Notes: a model not told the origin generated them from the sequence alone. A DNA stretch of 28,134 bases from a virus (IMGVR_UViG_3300008266_012294:1-28134); one strand, 5' to 3'. Counted from the first letter of the stretch, positions 4,051-15,299 are shown. Made by a program: numbers and translations.

Positions 4051-4109
4051 CGCTCACAACTTGATCGCGTGAATGTGGCTTCCAGTAGGGGAAGGGGATA
4101 ATTTAGTTG

Positions 4110-4313
4110 TTAGCCATCGCCAGAGCCATAACCAGAGCCAGAGCCACAACCATAACCAGAGCCATCACCAAAGCCATAACTAGAGCCATAACCAGAGCCA
4201 GAGCTATAACCAGAGTCATAACCAGAGCCAGAGCCACAACCATAACCAGAGCCATCACCAAAGCCAAAGCCAGAGCCATAGCCATAGCCATAATCAGTAT
4301 TTAGATCTTCCAT
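4110..4313 (-). CDS. Gly/Tyr/Ser-repeat low-complexity protein
   Basis: A 67-aa protein: MEDLNTDYGYGYGSG followed by repeats of GSGYG, GDGSGYG and GSGSGYD, with two GYGCG cysteines. The N-terminal acidic leader and overlap with the upstream gene (13 bases) support real translation. Similar Gly/Tyr/Asp-rich peptides follow DUF6948-type genes in other phages, as I recall. It is probably disordered; an adhesive or phase-separating role is speculative. Two other long open frames over the same DNA are by-products of the repeat. Confidence 0.6.
   Translation of the reverse strand: MEDLNTDYGYGYGSGFGFGDGSGYGCGSGSGYDSGYSSGSGYGSSYGFGDGSGYGCGSGSGYGSGDG
4127..4265. repeat. Perfect 49-bp direct repeat inside the Gly/Tyr gene
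   Basis: Bases 4127-4175 and 4217-4265 are identical, offset by 90 bp (30 codons, in frame). The repeat itself is built of GCC-rich hexamer variants. This suggests recent in-frame expansion and likely copy-number variation. Confidence 0.8.
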
Positions 4314-4588
4314 ACAGCAACCTCCGCGATTGAATCTTTCGCGATTTCTGTCACTGACAGAATTTCAATCACTTCAGTGACTATGATTCTGTCAACTTCC
4401 GCAGGAAATTTGCAATTACTAGGATCACTAGTTCCTGTTTGAGCTAGCTGAGAAAGGGATGCTGCCCCTGCCCATTTCCATAAACGCCGAGCGTTGCGTA
4501 TTGTTGCTTGCTTACCTTCAAGAGCTTCAAGAAATCCCGCGAATACACCCGCGCTGTAAGTTCGCACAATTACATATTGATCAATCAT
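4301..4588 (-). CDS. Phage protein of the DUF6948 type
   Basis: A 95-aa protein: VIVRTYSAGVFAGFLEALEGKQATIRNARRLWKWAGAASLSQLAQTG ... FPAEVDRIIVTEVIEILSVTEIA. The pattern VRTYSAGVxxG...ARRLWxWxGAxSLxQLAxxG...VxEIxxTEAIEIIPxT is one I recall from small phage proteins (DUF6948). Function unknown. The start is preceded by AGAGGTGCAAATAA. It is the first gene of the leftward block and heads a leader of about 190 bases after the candidate promoter at 4774-4802. Confidence 0.65.
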   Translation of the reverse strand: MIDQYVIVRTYSAGVFAGFLEALEGKQATIRNARRLWKWAGAASLSQLAQTGTSDPSNCKFPAEVDRIIVTEVIEILSVTEIAKDSIAEVAVWKI

Positions 4589-4802: not shown

Positions 4803-4833
4803 TACCCTAACCATAGTTATCCATCACAATAAA

Positions 4834-4860
4834 CCCGCAAAGCATAGACTAAAATCTATG
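4834..4860. repeat. CCCGCAAAGCATAGA hairpin element, copy 1
   Basis: CCCGCAAAGCATAGA, six bases, then TCTATG. The CATAGA/TCTATG arms pair. The same 15-base core and hairpin occur at 9310-9336. Here it overlaps the stop codon of the 391-codon gene. It could be a processing site, terminator variant or protein-binding site. Confidence 0.6.
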
Positions 4861-6019
4861 GCTGAATATCGCGATACCGTAGCAGACTGCACTCGTTATC
4901 AGGGGCGGCTTTACGGAACTCTAATCCGTAAGCGCTGTAATCGAATCTGTGGGTCTTCCTAAAGGTATTCCTAGCAAATGGACAACCTCTAGATATTGCA
5001 AGCTGATAAGCCATCTCTAGCGTCATCCATTCGTTCTCAAACTCTGTTGCTTGCACCCGTGAGAAGAAAGAAATCTCATGATGATCACGATTGTAGCGAT
5101 GGATTTCCCCTGCTACAGAGCGATTGTAAAAAAGTTTTGATAATTTTCTTAGCTCTATGTTCTCGCCTAGCAGCTCATTTAGCTTGTAAGCAATTGTTAC
5201 AGCATCCTGCCATTTATCGGTAAGCACTGAGTTAATCTGCTCAGTCGAGATAATCCGCTTAGCGACTCCCTTCTTTTTATCTGATTCAACTTTCTTACGG
5301 GTGCGTGTGCGTTTTGGATTACTCCAATCTAATAAAAGTTTCTGAACATCAGGGTGCATCCTATACCGTTTTTTGAGCGATGGTAGATACACTTTTAGGC
5401 TTGCATATTCACCTCCGCAAGCCTTATAAGCAAGCAAAGCTTTTATACGCTGACCATCGGGGCGATCGCGGATCGGTGGTTTTTGTCGTGGGCATAACGG
5501 GGCGCTGTAGGCAAAAAAGCTGTATAGATTCAGTATTGATTGCAAACCACTCAAACAAGGCTTTAAACACGCAAAAACATATAAGTACGTTGGTGATTTG
5601 CGATCTGTTAGCCTTTCGCGGTTACGAATCCGCTTACGTTGCTTTTTGGCTTTCGGCTTTGCAACATTCTTGGGCGGCTTTGTCTTTGGGCGATCGCTTT
5701 TCGGTTTTGGCGGTGGAGCTGCGATCGTCTCTAACTCTGGTTCTGGTCTAGCTTTTGGCGGTTGTAATTTTGGCGCGTCACCAATATGCAAAACGTTGCG
5801 ATCTAATAGCGACTGCCATAGGCTGGACCACTGATTTTTATACACCAAATACCGAGCTACGAATAACGCATTAGTGGCAATAGCGCGATCATCTTTGAGC
5901 TTGCGCCTTTGCTCATGTTCTGCGATCGCACTTAGGATCGGCGCAACTTGTCGCCATATTGCGGGGCTGGTATCAGGGGATGGGATAGCGGAGATGCAGA
6001 TGGGTAGGGATGGTTTCAT
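4856..6019 (-). CDS. Basic HTH-type DNA-binding protein, candidate replication initiator
   Basis: About 387 aa from the ATG at 6019 (a TTG at 6031 is in frame). In order: a helical N-terminal domain (about 1-80, AIWRQVAPILSAIAEHEQRR...), a Pro/Lys/Arg-rich linker (about 85-140), a middle domain, then a Lys/Arg-rich stretch (NPKRTRTRKKVESDKKKG) and two likely helix-turn-helix segments (ISTEQINSVLTDKW... and WMTLEMAYQLAISRG...). I know no exact family. Lying between the iteron-like region and the leftward genes, and next to the primase-helicase, it is a plausible origin-binding protein. That role is inference. Confidence 0.6.
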   Translation of the reverse strand: MKPSLPICISAIPSPDTSPAIWRQVAPILSAIAEHEQRRKLKDDRAIATNALFVARYLVYKNQWSSLWQSLLDRNVLHIGDAPKLQPPKARPEPELETIAAPPPKPKSDRPKTKPPKNVAKPKAKKQRKRIRNRERLTDRKSPTYLYVFACLKPCLSGLQSILNLYSFFAYSAPLCPRQKPPIRDRPDGQRIKALLAYKACGGEYASLKVYLPSLKKRYRMHPDVQKLLLDWSNPKRTRTRKKVESDKKKGVAKRIISTEQINSVLTDKWQDAVTIAYKLNELLGENIELRKLSKLFYNRSVAGEIHRYNRDHHEISFFSRVQATEFENEWMTLEMAYQLAISRGCPFARNTFRKTHRFDYSAYGLEFRKAAPDNECSLLRYRDIQP

Positions 6020-10754: not shown

Positions 10755-10782
10755 CAAAAAAGCCGTCGCGAGTGCAACGGCT
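10755..10782 (-). terminator. Intrinsic terminator after the cas6-type gene
   Basis: Read on the minus strand, AGCCGT, a ten-base loop, ACGGCT, then TTTTTT. It lies about 60 bases after the stop of the Cas6-type gene and closes the Cas-like block. Confidence 0.8.
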
Positions 10783-10841: not shown

Positions 10842-11423
10842 TTATTCAAAAAACCCGCATCCTAGATGTTTGCGACCTCCCAACCCTTTCTCTTGTAATA
10901 TTAAAGACTCGTTAGGGCGCAAATCTGAAAACATTACAGGGTATACAGCACACGGTTGCTTTTTAATAATTAGCTGCTCTTTGCGCCCTATTGTTGGCAG
11001 TGTATTAATATCAAACTTTGCTAGTTGCTTACCTAGCGACACCGCAAACCTAGTAAGATCGGGTTCACGATTGTTGTCGGTTTTAATTGATACCCAAGCC
11101 GCTAGATTCTCTTGAGATTTTAGCTCTGTGCCATTAACCAGCTTGAGTTTAATCAACTCTTTGCCTAAATGGATTTGACAATCAAAAAGCATCGTTAGCT
11201 CTGTAATTAAATCTTTGGAGCAACGTAGCCTTATAGTGCTTTGAGTTAAACGTAATGTGCGATCGTCAAAAATATTTGTGTTACTGATTCTACCGATCGC
11301 CCACTCAGGGTTATCTTTGAGCTTAGGAGCTAATCCCGTCAAAGCAGAATAGAGACAGTAATGGTAGTTTCTAGGGATTAAAGAGCCTTCAATACTGAAA
11401 AGAAATTCTACGAAGTTACTCAC
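10842..11423 (-). CDS. cas6: Cas6-type CRISPR RNA endoribonuclease
   Basis: A 193-aa RAMP protein. The C-terminus LILQEKGLGGRKHLGCGFFE is the Gly-rich loop of Cas6, in the form known from Cas6/Cmx6 (I-MYXAN-type) proteins (SxRLQExGLGGRRHMGCGxF). The N-terminal NYHYCLYSALTGLAP also fits that family (DHGYxLYxALSRLxP). His21 and His186 are candidate catalytic residues. Cas6 cuts CRISPR repeat RNA at the base of a stem-loop. It has a GTG start with AAAGGA upstream. It is separated from the csf-like genes by 260 bases with a stable hairpin, so it may be transcribed separately. No array is present, so its RNA substrate is unknown. Confidence 0.85.
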   Translation of the reverse strand: MSNFVEFLFSIEGSLIPRNYHYCLYSALTGLAPKLKDNPEWAIGRISNTNIFDDRTLRLTQSTIRLRCSKDLITELTMLFDCQIHLGKELIKLKLVNGTELKSQENLAAWVSIKTDNNREPDLTRFAVSLGKQLAKFDINTLPTIGRKEQLIIKKQPCAVYPVMFSDLRPNESLILQEKGLGGRKHLGCGFFE

Positions 11424-11552
11424 GATCTTTTATTCCTTTGGTATTTGTGTATTTCTTCAATTCCGCATGACTTTCTTATGTGACGGTTTTTGATAATGGT
11501 AAAATAATAGACTAGCCGAAGAATTTAAGCGTAACGATTAAATACTAAATAA

Positions 11553-11593
11553 GCGTCGCCTGCCTTTGTTGGAGAGAAGCAGACAGGCGACGC
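11553..11593. repeat. Stable hairpin between Coq4-like and Cas6-type genes
   Basis: GCGTCGCCTG and CAGGCGACGC are a perfect 10-bp inverted repeat around 21 bases. On the minus strand it is followed by TTATTTAGTATTT, so it could be a weak terminator or attenuator. A structured RNA substrate of the neighbouring Cas6 is also conceivable. I saw no second copy in the window. Confidence 0.6.
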
Positions 11594-11683
11594 GAAGTGT
11601 GTTGTAAAGAAAAGCTTCTCCGCTTTATTTTAGCACTGCCAAAAGGATAGCCAGCATCTTTAAGAACTAACGCTTCAAAACCG

Positions 11684-12216
11684 TTAGGGGCGGCGCAAAG
11701 GTAGCACTGCATATTTGTTTCTTACTTCTTCTAAAGGTAAATTAAGATCGTGTTGCCATTGCCAATTTTCAAACAACGAGGCGGCATTAGCGCCAATATT
11801 CCAAGCTTTAGCAAGATTCGCAGCATCAATGCAATCCGTTTTGTCACTCAAAAAGATTTCAAGCTGTTCCAATAAAAGGATTGGGGCTGGTGATTTATGA
11901 AGCATTCCACTTTCAAAAGCGATGATCTCCATCTCTCCCCTTTGAGTGGTATCAGCACCTAAAAGAACATGATGCAAATCATGGATAATGATGTAGTTAG
12001 CAGGAAAAAGAGATGCTTCGGTATTAGGCGTTGGCACTGATTCAGATTGATAATATTCGGCTAGATGCTCACCTAAACTATCAGGAATAGGATTGTTGAT
12101 TGCATCAAGAAATAATGCAATAGACTCCTTGTCAGGATTTAAGCCAGCATTGATATAGGCTTTTAATCCAGTTGGCTAAATAAATTACGGTCCGTCAAAA
12201 AGTTAGCGAGTTCCAT
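11684..12216 (-). pseudogene. Coq4-family protein gene, reading frame shifted near the 5' end
   Basis: The intact part carries HDLHHVLLGADTTQRGE, an exact fit to the Coq4 metal motif H-D-x2-H-x11-E, and the Coq4-like C-terminus AWNIGANAASLF...LPLEEVR. The natural start is the ATG at 12216, with GGAG eight bases upstream, inside the end of the CysH-like gene (14-base overlap). That frame reads MELANFLTDRNLFSQLD then stops at 12163. The Coq4 frame is open from 12175 and needs a -1 shift within about a dozen bases. A GTG at 12037 would give a shorter protein. Explanations are a one-base deletion, a sequencing error or frameshifting. Coq4 proteins act in ubiquinone biosynthesis in other organisms; the role here is unknown. 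Confidence 0.7.
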
Positions 12217-12898
12217 TTTTATTCTCCAAAAAATGATTAAGTTTAGGATTGTTTTTTTTAATGTTTTCTTTTTGGGTTTCAACCAAAGAATGATTTATTG
12301 AGAACCAAAAAGAAGCATGAGGATTAGTGCGATCGCTATATTTGTAAGCATCTAAATATGGTAGATCATGCAAACAAGTATAAGCCCAAATGTCTTCAGT
12401 TTGCCAATAAGCCAAGGGAAAGCATCGCCATAAATTATCGCTTTTATATTGATGGATTACCCCATAATGTTTAATTGCACTGCGCCTTTTTTTACTTTCT
12501 TGCGCCCTAACCCCAACTAAAGCAACTTTGAACTTAGGATCTATAGTTGCCTGTATGCGATCGCGCACGGTATCAGGGGTAAAAGCCCATTCTGGTAATG
12601 CTATCAACTCTTGATAATTGGTAGGAAATTTACTGCGATAAGTTGCAATCACTTCAGGAAAATTAGAAACAAGCCCTGTAGCTGACTCAATACTGCCATA
12701 GTGAAAAGCCAAAATATCAGGACAAATCGACTGCACTAAATGAAGCATTACGACTGAATCTTTACCCCATGACACCGCAACATAAGAAGGAGCGATCGCT
12801 AAAGCCTCTCGAATAATCTCTTTAGCTTTCTCAACTTTGCGCTTAAATGTTGGCAGTGTCGCATGAGCTAAAAAAGCATCGCGTTCTATTCTCTCCAT
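12203..12898 (-). CDS. CysH-like PP-loop protein of a type IV-like Cas locus
   Basis: A 231-aa PP-loop ATPase-type protein of the PAPS-reductase/DndC superfamily. The PP-loop is VSWGKDS at 42-48; GVRAQESKKRR at 129-139 and YWQTEDIWAY at 164-173 are the other family motifs. The catalytic Cys near the C-terminus of true PAPS reductases (ECGxH) is not visible, so sulphate assimilation is unlikely. CysH-like genes are a known companion of type IV-B CRISPR loci, with unknown function. The start overlaps the csf3-like gene by 13 bases and the end overlaps the Coq4-like gene by 14, so it is integral to the cassette. Confidence 0.85.
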   Translation of the reverse strand: MERIERDAFLAHATLPTFKRKVEKAKEIIREALAIAPSYVAVSWGKDSVVMLHLVQSICPDILAFHYGSIESATGLVSNFPEVIATYRSKFPTNYQELIALPEWAFTPDTVRDRIQATIDPKFKVALVGVRAQESKKRRSAIKHYGVIHQYKSDNLWRCFPLAYWQTEDIWAYTCLHDLPYLDAYKYSDRTNPHASFWFSINHSLVETQKENIKKNNPKLNHFLENKNGTR

Positions 12899-13572
12899 AC
12901 ATTATCCGTTGGCATATAGCACATAGTTCTATTGGATTGCACAAAATACGGTGTTCGCCACCCCCAGTTCATCATATTGATAGATTGAGGTTGTGGAATC
13001 ATATTAATTGGCATTGGTCGGGCTAAACTATCACCTCTCCACAAATGCCAATCATGCTCAAAAGGAAGTACTTCCCATTTGTGTACCTGTCCGCAACCTT
13101 GCGATCGCTTCTTGCCAAGGTTTGTAACATTTAGAATTAGTTCGCTAATCTTGTCAGCATTGCCAATCGCAAACCAGTGTATAGTCTGCATTTCGCGATC
13201 ATATCGTGGTAAATCATAGGCTTTAAAATGCCCTTGCGAACTATCAACCTTAGCTTTCTTTTTACCCCAATCAAGGTGTAGTTCTTGCTTGTCCCATCGC
13301 TTACGGTAACGCTGAGTTTGTTGATGATTTTCGATGTAGTGTGGTGAACTCACGGCCCAATACCACTCGCCTTTGAGCGTCTTCCGAGCGATCGGCATTT
13401 CATCAAAAATCAAGGGCAGATTCTTTTCAGCATCCGCAGCCGTTGGATTAGGCGTGATTAGCCCTAATTGGTCTAACAATTGATACTCAATCAGAGCATC
13501 GAAGCTAGGGGACCAGTCATCATAGGCAACTAGCGGCGTTGCCATGTGTGCGATTATTTGGAGGTTATCCAT
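12886..13572 (-). CDS. csf3: Csf3-like (Cas5-group) RAMP protein
   Basis: A 228-aa RAMP protein. The Gly-rich segment LGKKRSQGCGQVHKWEV (152-168) matches the Csf3 pattern (IGKRRxQGxGxVxxWxV), and MATPLVAYDDWSPSFDALIEY fits the N-terminal RRM region. Csf3 is the Cas5-like subunit that caps the 5' end of the guide RNA in type IV complexes. The gene starts 8 bases inside the csf2-like gene. The Csf3 assignment is by motif and position. Confidence 0.8.
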   Translation of the reverse strand: MDNLQIIAHMATPLVAYDDWSPSFDALIEYQLLDQLGLITPNPTAADAEKNLPLIFDEMPIARKTLKGEWYWAVSSPHYIENHQQTQRYRKRWDKQELHLDWGKKKAKVDSSQGHFKAYDLPRYDREMQTIHWFAIGNADKISELILNVTNLGKKRSQGCGQVHKWEVLPFEHDWHLWRGDSLARPMPINMIPQPQSINMMNWGWRTPYFVQSNRTMCYMPTDNVWRE

Positions 13573-14776
13573 TCAATAAACTCCGAATATCGCTCTTAGA
13601 ATCAGCTAGAAAGCCTTTGTAATCTTCGAGATATTCTTTATACCTTGCGTGAGATTCAGTAGCGCGATCGCTTAATTTCTGAGCATGAGGTGTAATCGTC
13701 ATAAACTCACCGCGATCGCCCTCCGCAGTCTCAAACCAGAATTGCATAGAGCATAGTCCGCAACCCGTTCCTGATTGACCGCCCAAGTATGGCGATTCTG
13801 CAAACTTGAGTAAAGCATCTGCAATAAATCCTTCTTCGATTCTGGTAACGTTTGCGCTCCAATAAGAGTACAAAGTAGCACCTGTTTGGAGTAGCCAATT
13901 ACCCATAATCATCTGTTGGCTTCTCTCTTTTTCGGGCTTTGCTTTTTCGCTTTTACCTTTCTTGGTTTCAGGCTCCGAAACTATACCAAATAGATCGCCT
14001 TGAGAAATCATCTTTTGAGGTTCTGGAGTAGCGCCGATCAAATGTTTTGCAAAGTTAGGATCGTGAAGTGAATCGCGCCTTGTCTTTTGGCTATAGGTAA
14101 GCCAATCGGAATAATATCGAAGCTTCTCTCCTAAGAATGGTAGCCACTCATCAAGCAAAGCCTTGAGATCGTAATTATTAACATCCGAAGGAGAACCATG
14201 ATGTAGCCATTGGTTTACGCGTTGGCTGTGCTGCAAATCTTTGCCATCAATAATCTGTTCTAGTGCTGGTATGACTTCGATTGGCAACGCAGGGGGGAAC
14301 ATCTGATAAAGATACTTAGCGCTCTCTACACAAGCCAAATACGCATCACCAATATTAATCCGACCATGGACCATTTGAGCATCGGATACACCAAACAATC
14401 CTTTAGGTTTGGCAGTTCCTAGCACTGAAAGGCATGGCAAAAGCTGACGGATTTTTCTATCCAAATCTAAATCATTACCCGTGCCACCATCGATCGCGCC
14501 GCCGCAAAATAGAGCGTGATGCATCGTTGGCGATACTTGCACACCAATCTGAGATAGGAAGGAATCAATACCACACCGCCGCAAAATTCTATTCCGTAAG
14601 CTATTGCCAGAAAGTGTAAAAACTTCAGAGGGATTTCCCTCTAAATCTGTCACTTTCATCGTTCGTAAATTGGTTTGATTGCCTACGGACTCACTGATAT
14701 GTGAGAGTGGCTGCAACAGTGTAATTTGCAGGTGTAGCTTGATATTATGGCGATCGTGGGGATTGTAATTAAGCAT
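13565..14776 (-). CDS. csf2: Csf2-like (Cas7-group) backbone protein
   Basis: A 403-aa RAMP protein, the probable multi-copy backbone that binds guide RNA. Diagnostic segments are LLQPLSHISESVGNQTNLRT (20-39) and FTLSGNSLRNRILRR (53-67), and near the end AESPYLGGQSGTGCGLC, the Gly-rich loop. They match Csf2 (P-L-x-H-x-x-x..., hydrophobic-x-G-N-S-L-R..., E-x-P-Y-x-G-G). A Lys/Glu-rich low-complexity insert lies around 267-288. It overlaps both neighbours by 8 bases. Length and motifs fit type IV Cas7. Confidence 0.85.
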   Translation of the reverse strand: MLNYNPHDRHNIKLHLQITLLQPLSHISESVGNQTNLRTMKVTDLEGNPSEVFTLSGNSLRNRILRRCGIDSFLSQIGVQVSPTMHHALFCGGAIDGGTGNDLDLDRKIRQLLPCLSVLGTAKPKGLFGVSDAQMVHGRINIGDAYLACVESAKYLYQMFPPALPIEVIPALEQIIDGKDLQHSQRVNQWLHHGSPSDVNNYDLKALLDEWLPFLGEKLRYYSDWLTYSQKTRRDSLHDPNFAKHLIGATPEPQKMISQGDLFGIVSEPETKKGKSEKAKPEKERSQQMIMGNWLLQTGATLYSYWSANVTRIEEGFIADALLKFAESPYLGGQSGTGCGLCSMQFWFETAEGDRGEFMTITPHAQKLSDRATESHARYKEYLEDYKGFLADSKSDIRSLLNG

Positions 14777-15299
14777 TATTAGCCTCTACATCTAGAGTAT
14801 TTTCTGTTTCTTCTGGAATATTCAAAGCGCGATCGCTTTCAAAGCGAACACGACAAAAAGTAGTAATAATGTGCGGTTTTGATTTGCACAAACTGAGGAT
14901 ATGGCGATCGCTTATCCCGTGCGTATATTTCAATTTGGCTAAAATGTCGTTCCATCCCAACCACCAAAGATCAATATTTTGATCGCAGTCTTTCTGTTGA
15001 ATGTCTCCCATACTGCCATCATCATTCACAGTAGCCCGTAAAACCACTTGTTTTGGCGCGATTATGCGAGTCCATTCTTTTGGGTTGAGGTGTGCAACAA
15101 TAAGCTTCTTGGCTAAATTCTCAATGTAGTCGTCGATATTGCGAGAGGGAATAGCAGCATTTTGGATACTGCTTTGAAAATATTCCCATGTTTTTAAGCC
15201 CATGGCAGGACTTTTACTCTTGTCTCTACAGCGAAAAACCCAGTAACTAAGCGCACTGGCTAAAGCTGTAACCCTGTCTTCCGTTTCTATTCCATACAT
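14769..15299 (-). CDS. Putative large/small subunit of the type IV-like complex
   Basis: A 176-aa protein in the position of csf1 or cas11, first gene of the cassette and overlapping csf2 by 8 bases. The N-terminal 65 residues look helical (VTALASALSYWVFRCRD..., NIDDYIENLAKKLIVAHL); the C-terminal part mixes helix and strand (WWLGWNDILAKLKYTHGISDRHILSLC). It lacks the CxxC zinc motif of Csf1, so it may be a degenerate Csf1, a Cas11-like subunit or a new component. Assignment is by position only. Confidence 0.5.
   Translation of the reverse strand: MYGIETEDRVTALASALSYWVFRCRDKSKSPAMGLKTWEYFQSSIQNAAIPSRNIDDYIENLAKKLIVAHLNPKEWTRIIAPKQVVLRATVNDDGSMGDIQQKDCDQNIDLWWLGWNDILAKLKYTHGISDRHILSLCKSKPHIITTFCRVRFESDRALNIPEETENTLDVEANNA

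Follow-up and report, generated by a model that had tools for sequence, protein, structure and literature searches.

What might a type IV CRISPR (clustered regularly interspaced short palindromic repeats)-associated cassette do in a phage in which no array for it is found, and which known subtype does it resemble? The question is raised by IMGVR_UViG_3300008266_012294:1-28134, a 28,134-base IMG/VR virus record (G000; hereafter the window, i.e., the whole stretch of DNA that was analyzed), in which six minus-strand genes at positions 10842-15299 encode, by profile search, Cas11, Csf2 (Cas7), Csf3 (Cas5), a CysH-like PP-loop protein, a Coq4-like protein, and Cas6. Sequence comparison indicates a type IV-B effector cassette that acquired a Cas6 of the cyanobacterial I-B family and from which csf1 became detached. 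We propose, with slightly less than even confidence, that its products form a cyanophage IV-B-derived ribonucleoprotein, which would be loaded in trans, via Cas6, with CRISPR RNAs (crRNAs) of others and would carry an exchangeable chemical effector.

The cassette and its type IV-B affinities

14769-15299, minus strand: cas11, type IV small subunit, 176 aa (PADLOC typeIV_Cas11, E=2.3e-12)
13565-14776, minus strand: csf2 (cas7), 403 aa (PADLOC Csf2_0_IV, E=1.2e-42; profile match to PDB Csf2 8rc2)
12886-13572, minus strand: csf3 (cas5), 228 aa (PADLOC Csf3_0_IV, E=7.4e-47; PDB Csf3 8rc3)
12203-12898, minus strand: cysH-like PP-loop gene, 231 aa (Pfam PAPS_reduct, E=7.7e-13)
11684-12216, minus strand: coq4-like gene, broken, as aligned to locus L008 (intact relative of 236 aa; Pfam Coq4, E=5.7e-5)
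11640-11706, minus strand: scar of a csf1 start (CYLCAAPN...LVLKD), with 25-nt near-identity to the csf1 starts of L013, L016, and L017, at the site occupied by csf1 in sister phages
11424-11639, minus strand: non-coding linker with a 13-bp hairpin, common to L010 and L098 and deleted in most relatives
10842-11423, minus strand: cas6, 193 aa, I-B/MYXAN family (Pfam Cas6, E=1.7e-33; PADLOC, E=9e-36)
10761-10782, minus strand: intrinsic-terminator-like hairpin at the operon end

An initial annotation of this DNA had described a phage type IV Cas cassette with CysH within the operon, Cas6 beside it, and no array. This picture is supported, and the gene positions, the minus strand, and the overlaps of 8, 8, 13, and 14 bases are confirmed. 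Profile searches, which the annotation had called for, establish a repeat-associated mysterious protein (RAMP) relationship for Csf2, Csf3, and Cas6 at the PADLOC values listed above, and identify the 176-aa protein in the csf1/cas11 position as Cas11; against TIGR03115, the csf2 product scores under the family cut-off (E=1.7e-5). Solved relatives comprise Csf2 (8rc2), Csf3 (8rc3 and 7xfz), and the Cas6 of an I-B CRISPR-associated transposon (CAST; 8fcj). In IMG/VR, 21 related loci are recovered via Csf3 and a few more via Csf2, and the same gene order, for which the annotation had suggested searching, recurs in more than 20 contigs, near-identical ones included, so that the loci are not all independent. 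Purifying selection acts on the core genes, cas6 and the detached csf1 included (ratio of nonsynonymous to synonymous substitution rates, dN/dS, 0.02-0.16), while the genes of the exchanged module described below show dN/dS of 0.04-0.23.

Type IV membership is indicated by Csf2 (Cas7) and Csf3 (Cas5), and the IV-B affinity by Cas11, an operon-encoded CysH without catalytic cysteine, the absence of an array from the window and from the 80-kb relative G008, and nearest relatives that are IV-B loci. By tblastn, Csf2 matches only plasmids of Rhodococcus, Rhodovastum, and Gloeobacter, and the three of these loci that were inspected all have a phosphoadenosine phosphosulfate (PAPS) reductase gene; the Csf3 matches listed are Gloeobacter and Rhodococcus plasmids. 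Subtype IV-B is described as being without Cas6, and the lack of a crRNA-processing enzyme is among its criteria (PMC8175902). Since Cas6 is present, the cassette would be a IV-B variant and not a plain member. Neither a DinG helicase, typical of IV-A, nor the Cas10-like large subunit of IV-C is found among the cassette products; the 706-aa protein of the window is a primase-helicase, and the relatives have Csf1. The earlier view that the set fits neither known subtype thus gives way to one in which Cas11, Csf2, Csf3, CysH, and the detached Csf1 are IV-B-like and Cas6 is the departure.

The csf1 gene is not in the 28-kb window, apart from the scar of its start, and is present elsewhere in near relatives. 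In L012-L017, Csf1 is a zinc-finger protein (CYLC..CDRC) encoded downstream of the CysH module (PADLOC typeIV_Cas8, with E from 1e-23 to 5e-27 in the three proteins searched); most of these loci are missing cas6, and in L017, which has both genes, the csf1 N-terminus is fused to Cas6. G005 and G008, large Cas6-type contigs of 73 and 80 kb, carry an intact csf1 distant from the cassette, near the terminase. Five further metagenomes with a cassette contig of the window clade (3300042312, 3300042449, 3300034116, 3300032093, and 3300031963) also yield a csf1 contig, in which csf1 adjoins the terminase or its neighbor gene, with no other cas gene in reach. In the window, the scar core of 25 nt (11682-11706) lies between coq4 and cas6 in a frame reading CYLCAAPN, and the last Coq4 residues, LPLRRP, are read in a frame overlapping it, an arrangement identical to that where cupin meets csf1 in L013. 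From these two features, we infer as a historical reading that csf1 once followed coq4 in the window lineage, with cas6 now standing at the former csf1 start. The idea that the system lacks csf1 is rejected, its absence here probably reflecting the 28-kb fragment.

The Cas6 passes TIGR02807 (I-MYXAN Cas6/Cmx6) with 107.5 bits at a cut-off of 98.85, occurs in the window and about ten relatives, retains the C-terminal glycine-rich loop, and has its nearest relatives in cyanobacterial I-B Cas6 and the CAST Cas6 8fcj. The Gloeobacter morelensis plasmid pGMOR1 also pairs csf genes with a Cas6, which shares 26% identity with the phage protein (E=1e-4) and is encoded at a different locus position. 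This suggests a second Cas6 recruitment, a claim that draws on position and low identity only, as the branches of the Cas6 tree are few and long and separate acquisitions are not provable from it.

The surroundings are those of a phage early region, with a RecT annealing protein, a primase-helicase, and C5 and Dam-type DNA methyltransferases encoded in the window. In a close relative, the terminase most resembles those of Leptolyngbya, Microcystis, and Anabaena phages, which points to a freshwater-type cyanophage. Searches of the whole window return no Rfam RNA, tRNA, or CRISPR array or repeat, and genome-contig scans using Cas6 and Csf2 as queries find no relatives. Tandem repeats of 12 nt, of the AGCCATAACCAG type, occupy positions 4088-4326 and are also present in G001 and G007. 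Among the relatives, the csf2/csf3 junction is the exact insertion site in L009 (7628-8005), L020 (7174-8004), and L016 (7448-8008); the first two inserts are of homing type (GIY-YIG, T5orf172), and that of L016 is without a Pfam match. In L020 and L021 (6702-7181), an in-frame deletion has fused the gene preceding cas11 to the part of csf2 that encodes the C-terminus, and the cassette is decayed. The distant phage loci L143 and L144 hold csf1, csf2, csf3, and cysH adjoining a terminase-like gene, without cas6 or a partner gene.

CysH and its exchangeable partners

The downstream part of the operon is exchanged between phages. Compared with L009 or L002, the DNA of the window is 97-98% identical in csf3 and about 94% in the first 66 codons of cysH (12701-12898), which are constant between phages; identity falls to 53% in the remainder of cysH (12203-12700), which is exchanged, stays near 50% through the partner gene, and returns to 95-97% in cas6. 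The module occurs in the following forms:

CysH-A with Coq4-A: window, L008
CysH-B with Coq4-B: L003, L009
CysH-C with a cupin: L002, L006, L010
CysH-D alone: L007, whose cassette is intact without any partner gene
N6/N4 DNA methyltransferase replacing CysH: L012
CysH-E alone: L014, L016
CysH-E with a glycosyltransferase-like protein and a second cupin-like protein: L013, L015
CysH-E with a weakly matching methyltransferase: L017

The CysH proteins keep the motifs SxGKDS (SWGKDS), GxRxE(S/N)..R, and I/V-W and are devoid of the C-terminal catalytic cysteine (ECGLH) of PAPS reductase proper, as is the CysH of classical IV-B loci (PMC8175902). Fold neighbors of the structure model (predicted local distance difference test score, pLDDT, 68) are FAD synthase, PAPS reductase, TtuA, and TilS, i.e., enzymes whose substrates are adenylated, either by the enzyme itself or beforehand. 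The reading of CysH as a common phage PAPS reductase was set aside, with zero tblastn matches among 50,697 phage records. Among plasmids, tblastn finds a single relative of CysH-C, the pGMOR1 CysH (42% identity), from a locus that also combines IV-B genes with Cas6. Judged from its co-inheritance, its overlap with csf3, and this relative, CysH is a real member of the system, as the initial annotation had held.

For Coq4, the same annotation had assumed an intact fifth gene and fixed member, which does not stand. The coq4 ATG at 12216, which gives the 14-base overlap with cysH, opens a frame that ends after 17 codons, as 178 bp kept by L008 are missing from the window (deletion junction at about 12169/12170); L008 is 99% identical around coq4 and encodes an intact protein of 236 aa, of which the window retains the C-terminal 160 aa in another frame. 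The HDxxHx11E metal site is kept in both Coq4-like forms, the window remnant included, and whole-protein Pfam Coq4 scores are marginal, near or under the threshold. A Coq4 structure model (pLDDT 34) was not usable. From these comparisons, Coq4 is one of several exchangeable partners, disrupted in the window copy, and not a fixed member. The two objections that the annotation had raised against itself, a missing RAMP relationship and a lack of co-inheritance, fail for Cas11, Csf2, Csf3, CysH, and Cas6 and are partly borne out for Coq4.

Possible guide RNA sources, proposed mechanism, and alternatives

Arrays are found in three related contigs, with repeat GGTGAAGCTTCTGGTTAAGCGATCGGCTGATTGGAAG:

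G005, 46614-46915 (L046)
G019, 4808-5279 (L038)
G020, 32911-33382 (L057)

They comprise 5-7 repeats of 37 nt with spacers of 34-40 nt, one unit in G005 being degenerate, and stand directly behind a compact, phage-encoded V-U2 (C2c8) effector of 558-581 aa; they are therefore not assigned to the csf cassette. The V-U2 repeat is absent from the window, and G008 and G014 have neither the V-U2 effector nor an array. One V-U2 spacer, searched in viral contigs, matches only two contigs with V-U2 arrays. On pGMOR1 (140572-142850; L090), a V-U2-like protein annotated as a transposase, apparently without RuvC-III, precedes an 8-repeat array that is missing from the annotation table. Solo CRISPR repeats of a cyanobacterial type, ATTGCAATATATTTTGATCCTTGGTAGGGATTGAAAG, are seen in L012 (3457-3595 and 6221-6257) and L069 (1971-2007 and 4127-4163), and in each locus one of them precedes cas11 by about 60 bp.

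In the proposed mechanism, Csf2, Cas11, Csf3, and Csf1 would form a filament on small RNA, by homology to the solved Mycobacterium IV-B complex (PMC7937560). Cas6 would bind, and perhaps cut, the repeat hairpins of crRNAs from host arrays or, in some relatives, from a co-resident V-U2 array, and the Cas6-bound crRNAs would feed the array-less Csf complex, by analogy with CASTs, which, according to a review, use host crRNAs via Cas6 (PMC11656645). The idea of host crRNAs is strengthened by the family to which the phage Cas6 belongs. CysH, as a putative ATP pyrophosphatase-type adenylating enzyme, may act with its partner on the nucleic acid that is bound or targeted, modifying it chemically, or may make a small molecule, and adaptation of hosts or rivals to this chemistry may drive the module swaps. 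In favor of the proposal are the profile identities, the conserved detached csf1, the csf1 scar, the pairing with Cas6 elsewhere in the locus on pGMOR1, the I-B and CAST relatives of Cas6, the sharp breakpoints of the module exchange, the motifs and fold neighbors of CysH, the methyltransferase that replaces CysH in L012, and the low dN/dS throughout. A version in which Cas6-captured crRNAs aim the Csf filament, and the adenylating enzyme and a partner (Coq4-like, cupin, glycosyltransferase, or methyltransferase) mark the target nucleic acid, is considered unlikely.

Several points weigh against the proposal. No CRISPR array owned by the cassette is found, either in the window by repeat search or in the 80-kb G008. 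The phages do not contain the repeats of two I-B arrays from cyanobacteria, with best matches at 12-17 mismatches and the window no better than a shuffle. The Coq4 of the window is broken. The phage Cas6 has N-Y-H at the site where five cyanobacterial I-B Cas6 and that of pGMOR1 have D-H-N/G, and the His of the DH motif is presumably the catalytic residue; the CAST Cas6 8fcj is also without His at this site, so that the changed motif need not mean an inactive Cas6. Furthermore, the slot exchange might reflect no more than the usual mosaicism of phages at a hot spot of recombination (RecT being encoded in the window), and the module enzymes could act independently of the ribonucleoprotein.

The main rival is a guide-RNA sponge, in which the Csf proteins and a binding-only Cas6 would soak up host crRNAs or other small RNAs and blunt host CRISPR immunity with no targeting. 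The cassette is without a nuclease, the IV-B complex of known structure was assembled on RNAs of non-CRISPR origin (PMC7937560), and a Cas6 that keeps its glycine-rich loop with NYH in place of the DH of most relatives would suit binding; however, 8fcj is likewise without the His, so that the change need not mean inactivity, and a sponge leaves the exchangeable CysH/Coq4/cupin/glycosyltransferase/methyltransferase module and the conserved PP-loop active site unexplained. We regard it as rather unlikely. That the module proteins are passenger genes (morons) at a hot spot downstream of csf3, with no tie to Csf, would agree with RecT, with a partner that is variable and broken in the window, and with homing-type inserts that also strike the csf2/csf3 junction. 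It is nevertheless quite unlikely, as CysH is near-universal here, overlaps csf3, and has an invariant N-terminus on changing C-termini, as CysH is a IV-B hallmark elsewhere (PMC8175902), and as CysH, cupin, and csf1 recur on pGMOR1.

Decay of the cassette of this contig into a non-functional state is suggested by the coq4 deletion and by the fused and deleted cassette of G019/G020, whereas intact cas11, csf2, csf3, cysH, and cas6 with low dN/dS, together with the partner-less intact cassette of L007, make it very unlikely. Use of crRNAs from the phage's own V-U2 array would fit G005 and pGMOR1, which combine a Cas6-type cassette with such an array, as well as a published Actinomyces plasmid whose IV-B locus comes with an inactivated Cas12b3 (PMC12669027); yet the Cas6-type G008, at 80 kb, has neither V-U2 nor array, and G019/G020 retain the array with a decayed csf cassette and no cas6, so that we hold this to be highly improbable. 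Finally, a phage small RNA from the coq4-cas6 gap as the guide gains from the strong hairpin of the linker (z = -2.05), but this linker is a remnant of the csf1 scar and is missing, by deletion, from most relatives of the Cas6 type (L002, L003, L006, L007, and L009); the idea is largely refuted and retains next to no probability.

The preferred reading, a Cas6-fed ribonucleoprotein with a chemical effector, bears on matters that the literature treats as open questions, namely the function of type IV-B and the role of its ever-present CysH. The phages offer natural variants, with other CysH partners or with a DNA methyltransferase instead of CysH, and loci with Cas6 recruited at two positions. 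If Cas6 does load crRNAs, array-less IV-B would be a guide-RNA hijacker, an idea open to testing with the known repeats of hosts; should the module be the effector, a chemical output would join cutting and blocking among the actions of CRISPR complexes.

Comparison with known systems

In the open-licence literature, we found no earlier account in which IV-B is combined with Cas6 or its CysH has exchangeable partners, and no relevant paper linking Coq4 to type IV CRISPR or cupin to IV-B; the 2025 classification text makes no mention of CysH, Coq4, or cupin. The type IV-B system of JS623 (PMC7937560, PMC8175902) resembles the phage cassette in Cas11, Csf2, Csf3, a Cys-less CysH, carriage on a mobile element, Csf1 (here in relatives), and the lack of an array for the cassette, whereas the phage cassette differs in the presence of Cas6, the genomically detached csf1, and the exchangeable CysH partner. 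The virus-encoded IV-B of Fuxivirus, a Bathyarchaeia virus (PMC10848311), likewise has CysH, but holds csf1 in the locus together with a mini-array, and the paper mentions no Cas6. Cyanobacterial I-B (MYXAN) Cas6 and the I-B CAST Cas6 (8fcj) belong to the same family as the phage Cas6, which is, however, encoded with csf genes and not with cas3/cas8/cas7 or tns genes. The locus of pGMOR1 (NZ_CP063846, 77.5-82.5 kb) shares cas11, csf2, csf3, cysH, a cupin, csf1, and a Cmx6-family cas6, and its Csf2 is 42% identical to that of the phage. It differs in its order (cas11, csf2, cas6, csf3, cysH, cupin, csf1), with cas6 between csf2 and csf3, csf1 inside the operon, and a cupin as the partner, and its record carries no annotation of a IV-B role.

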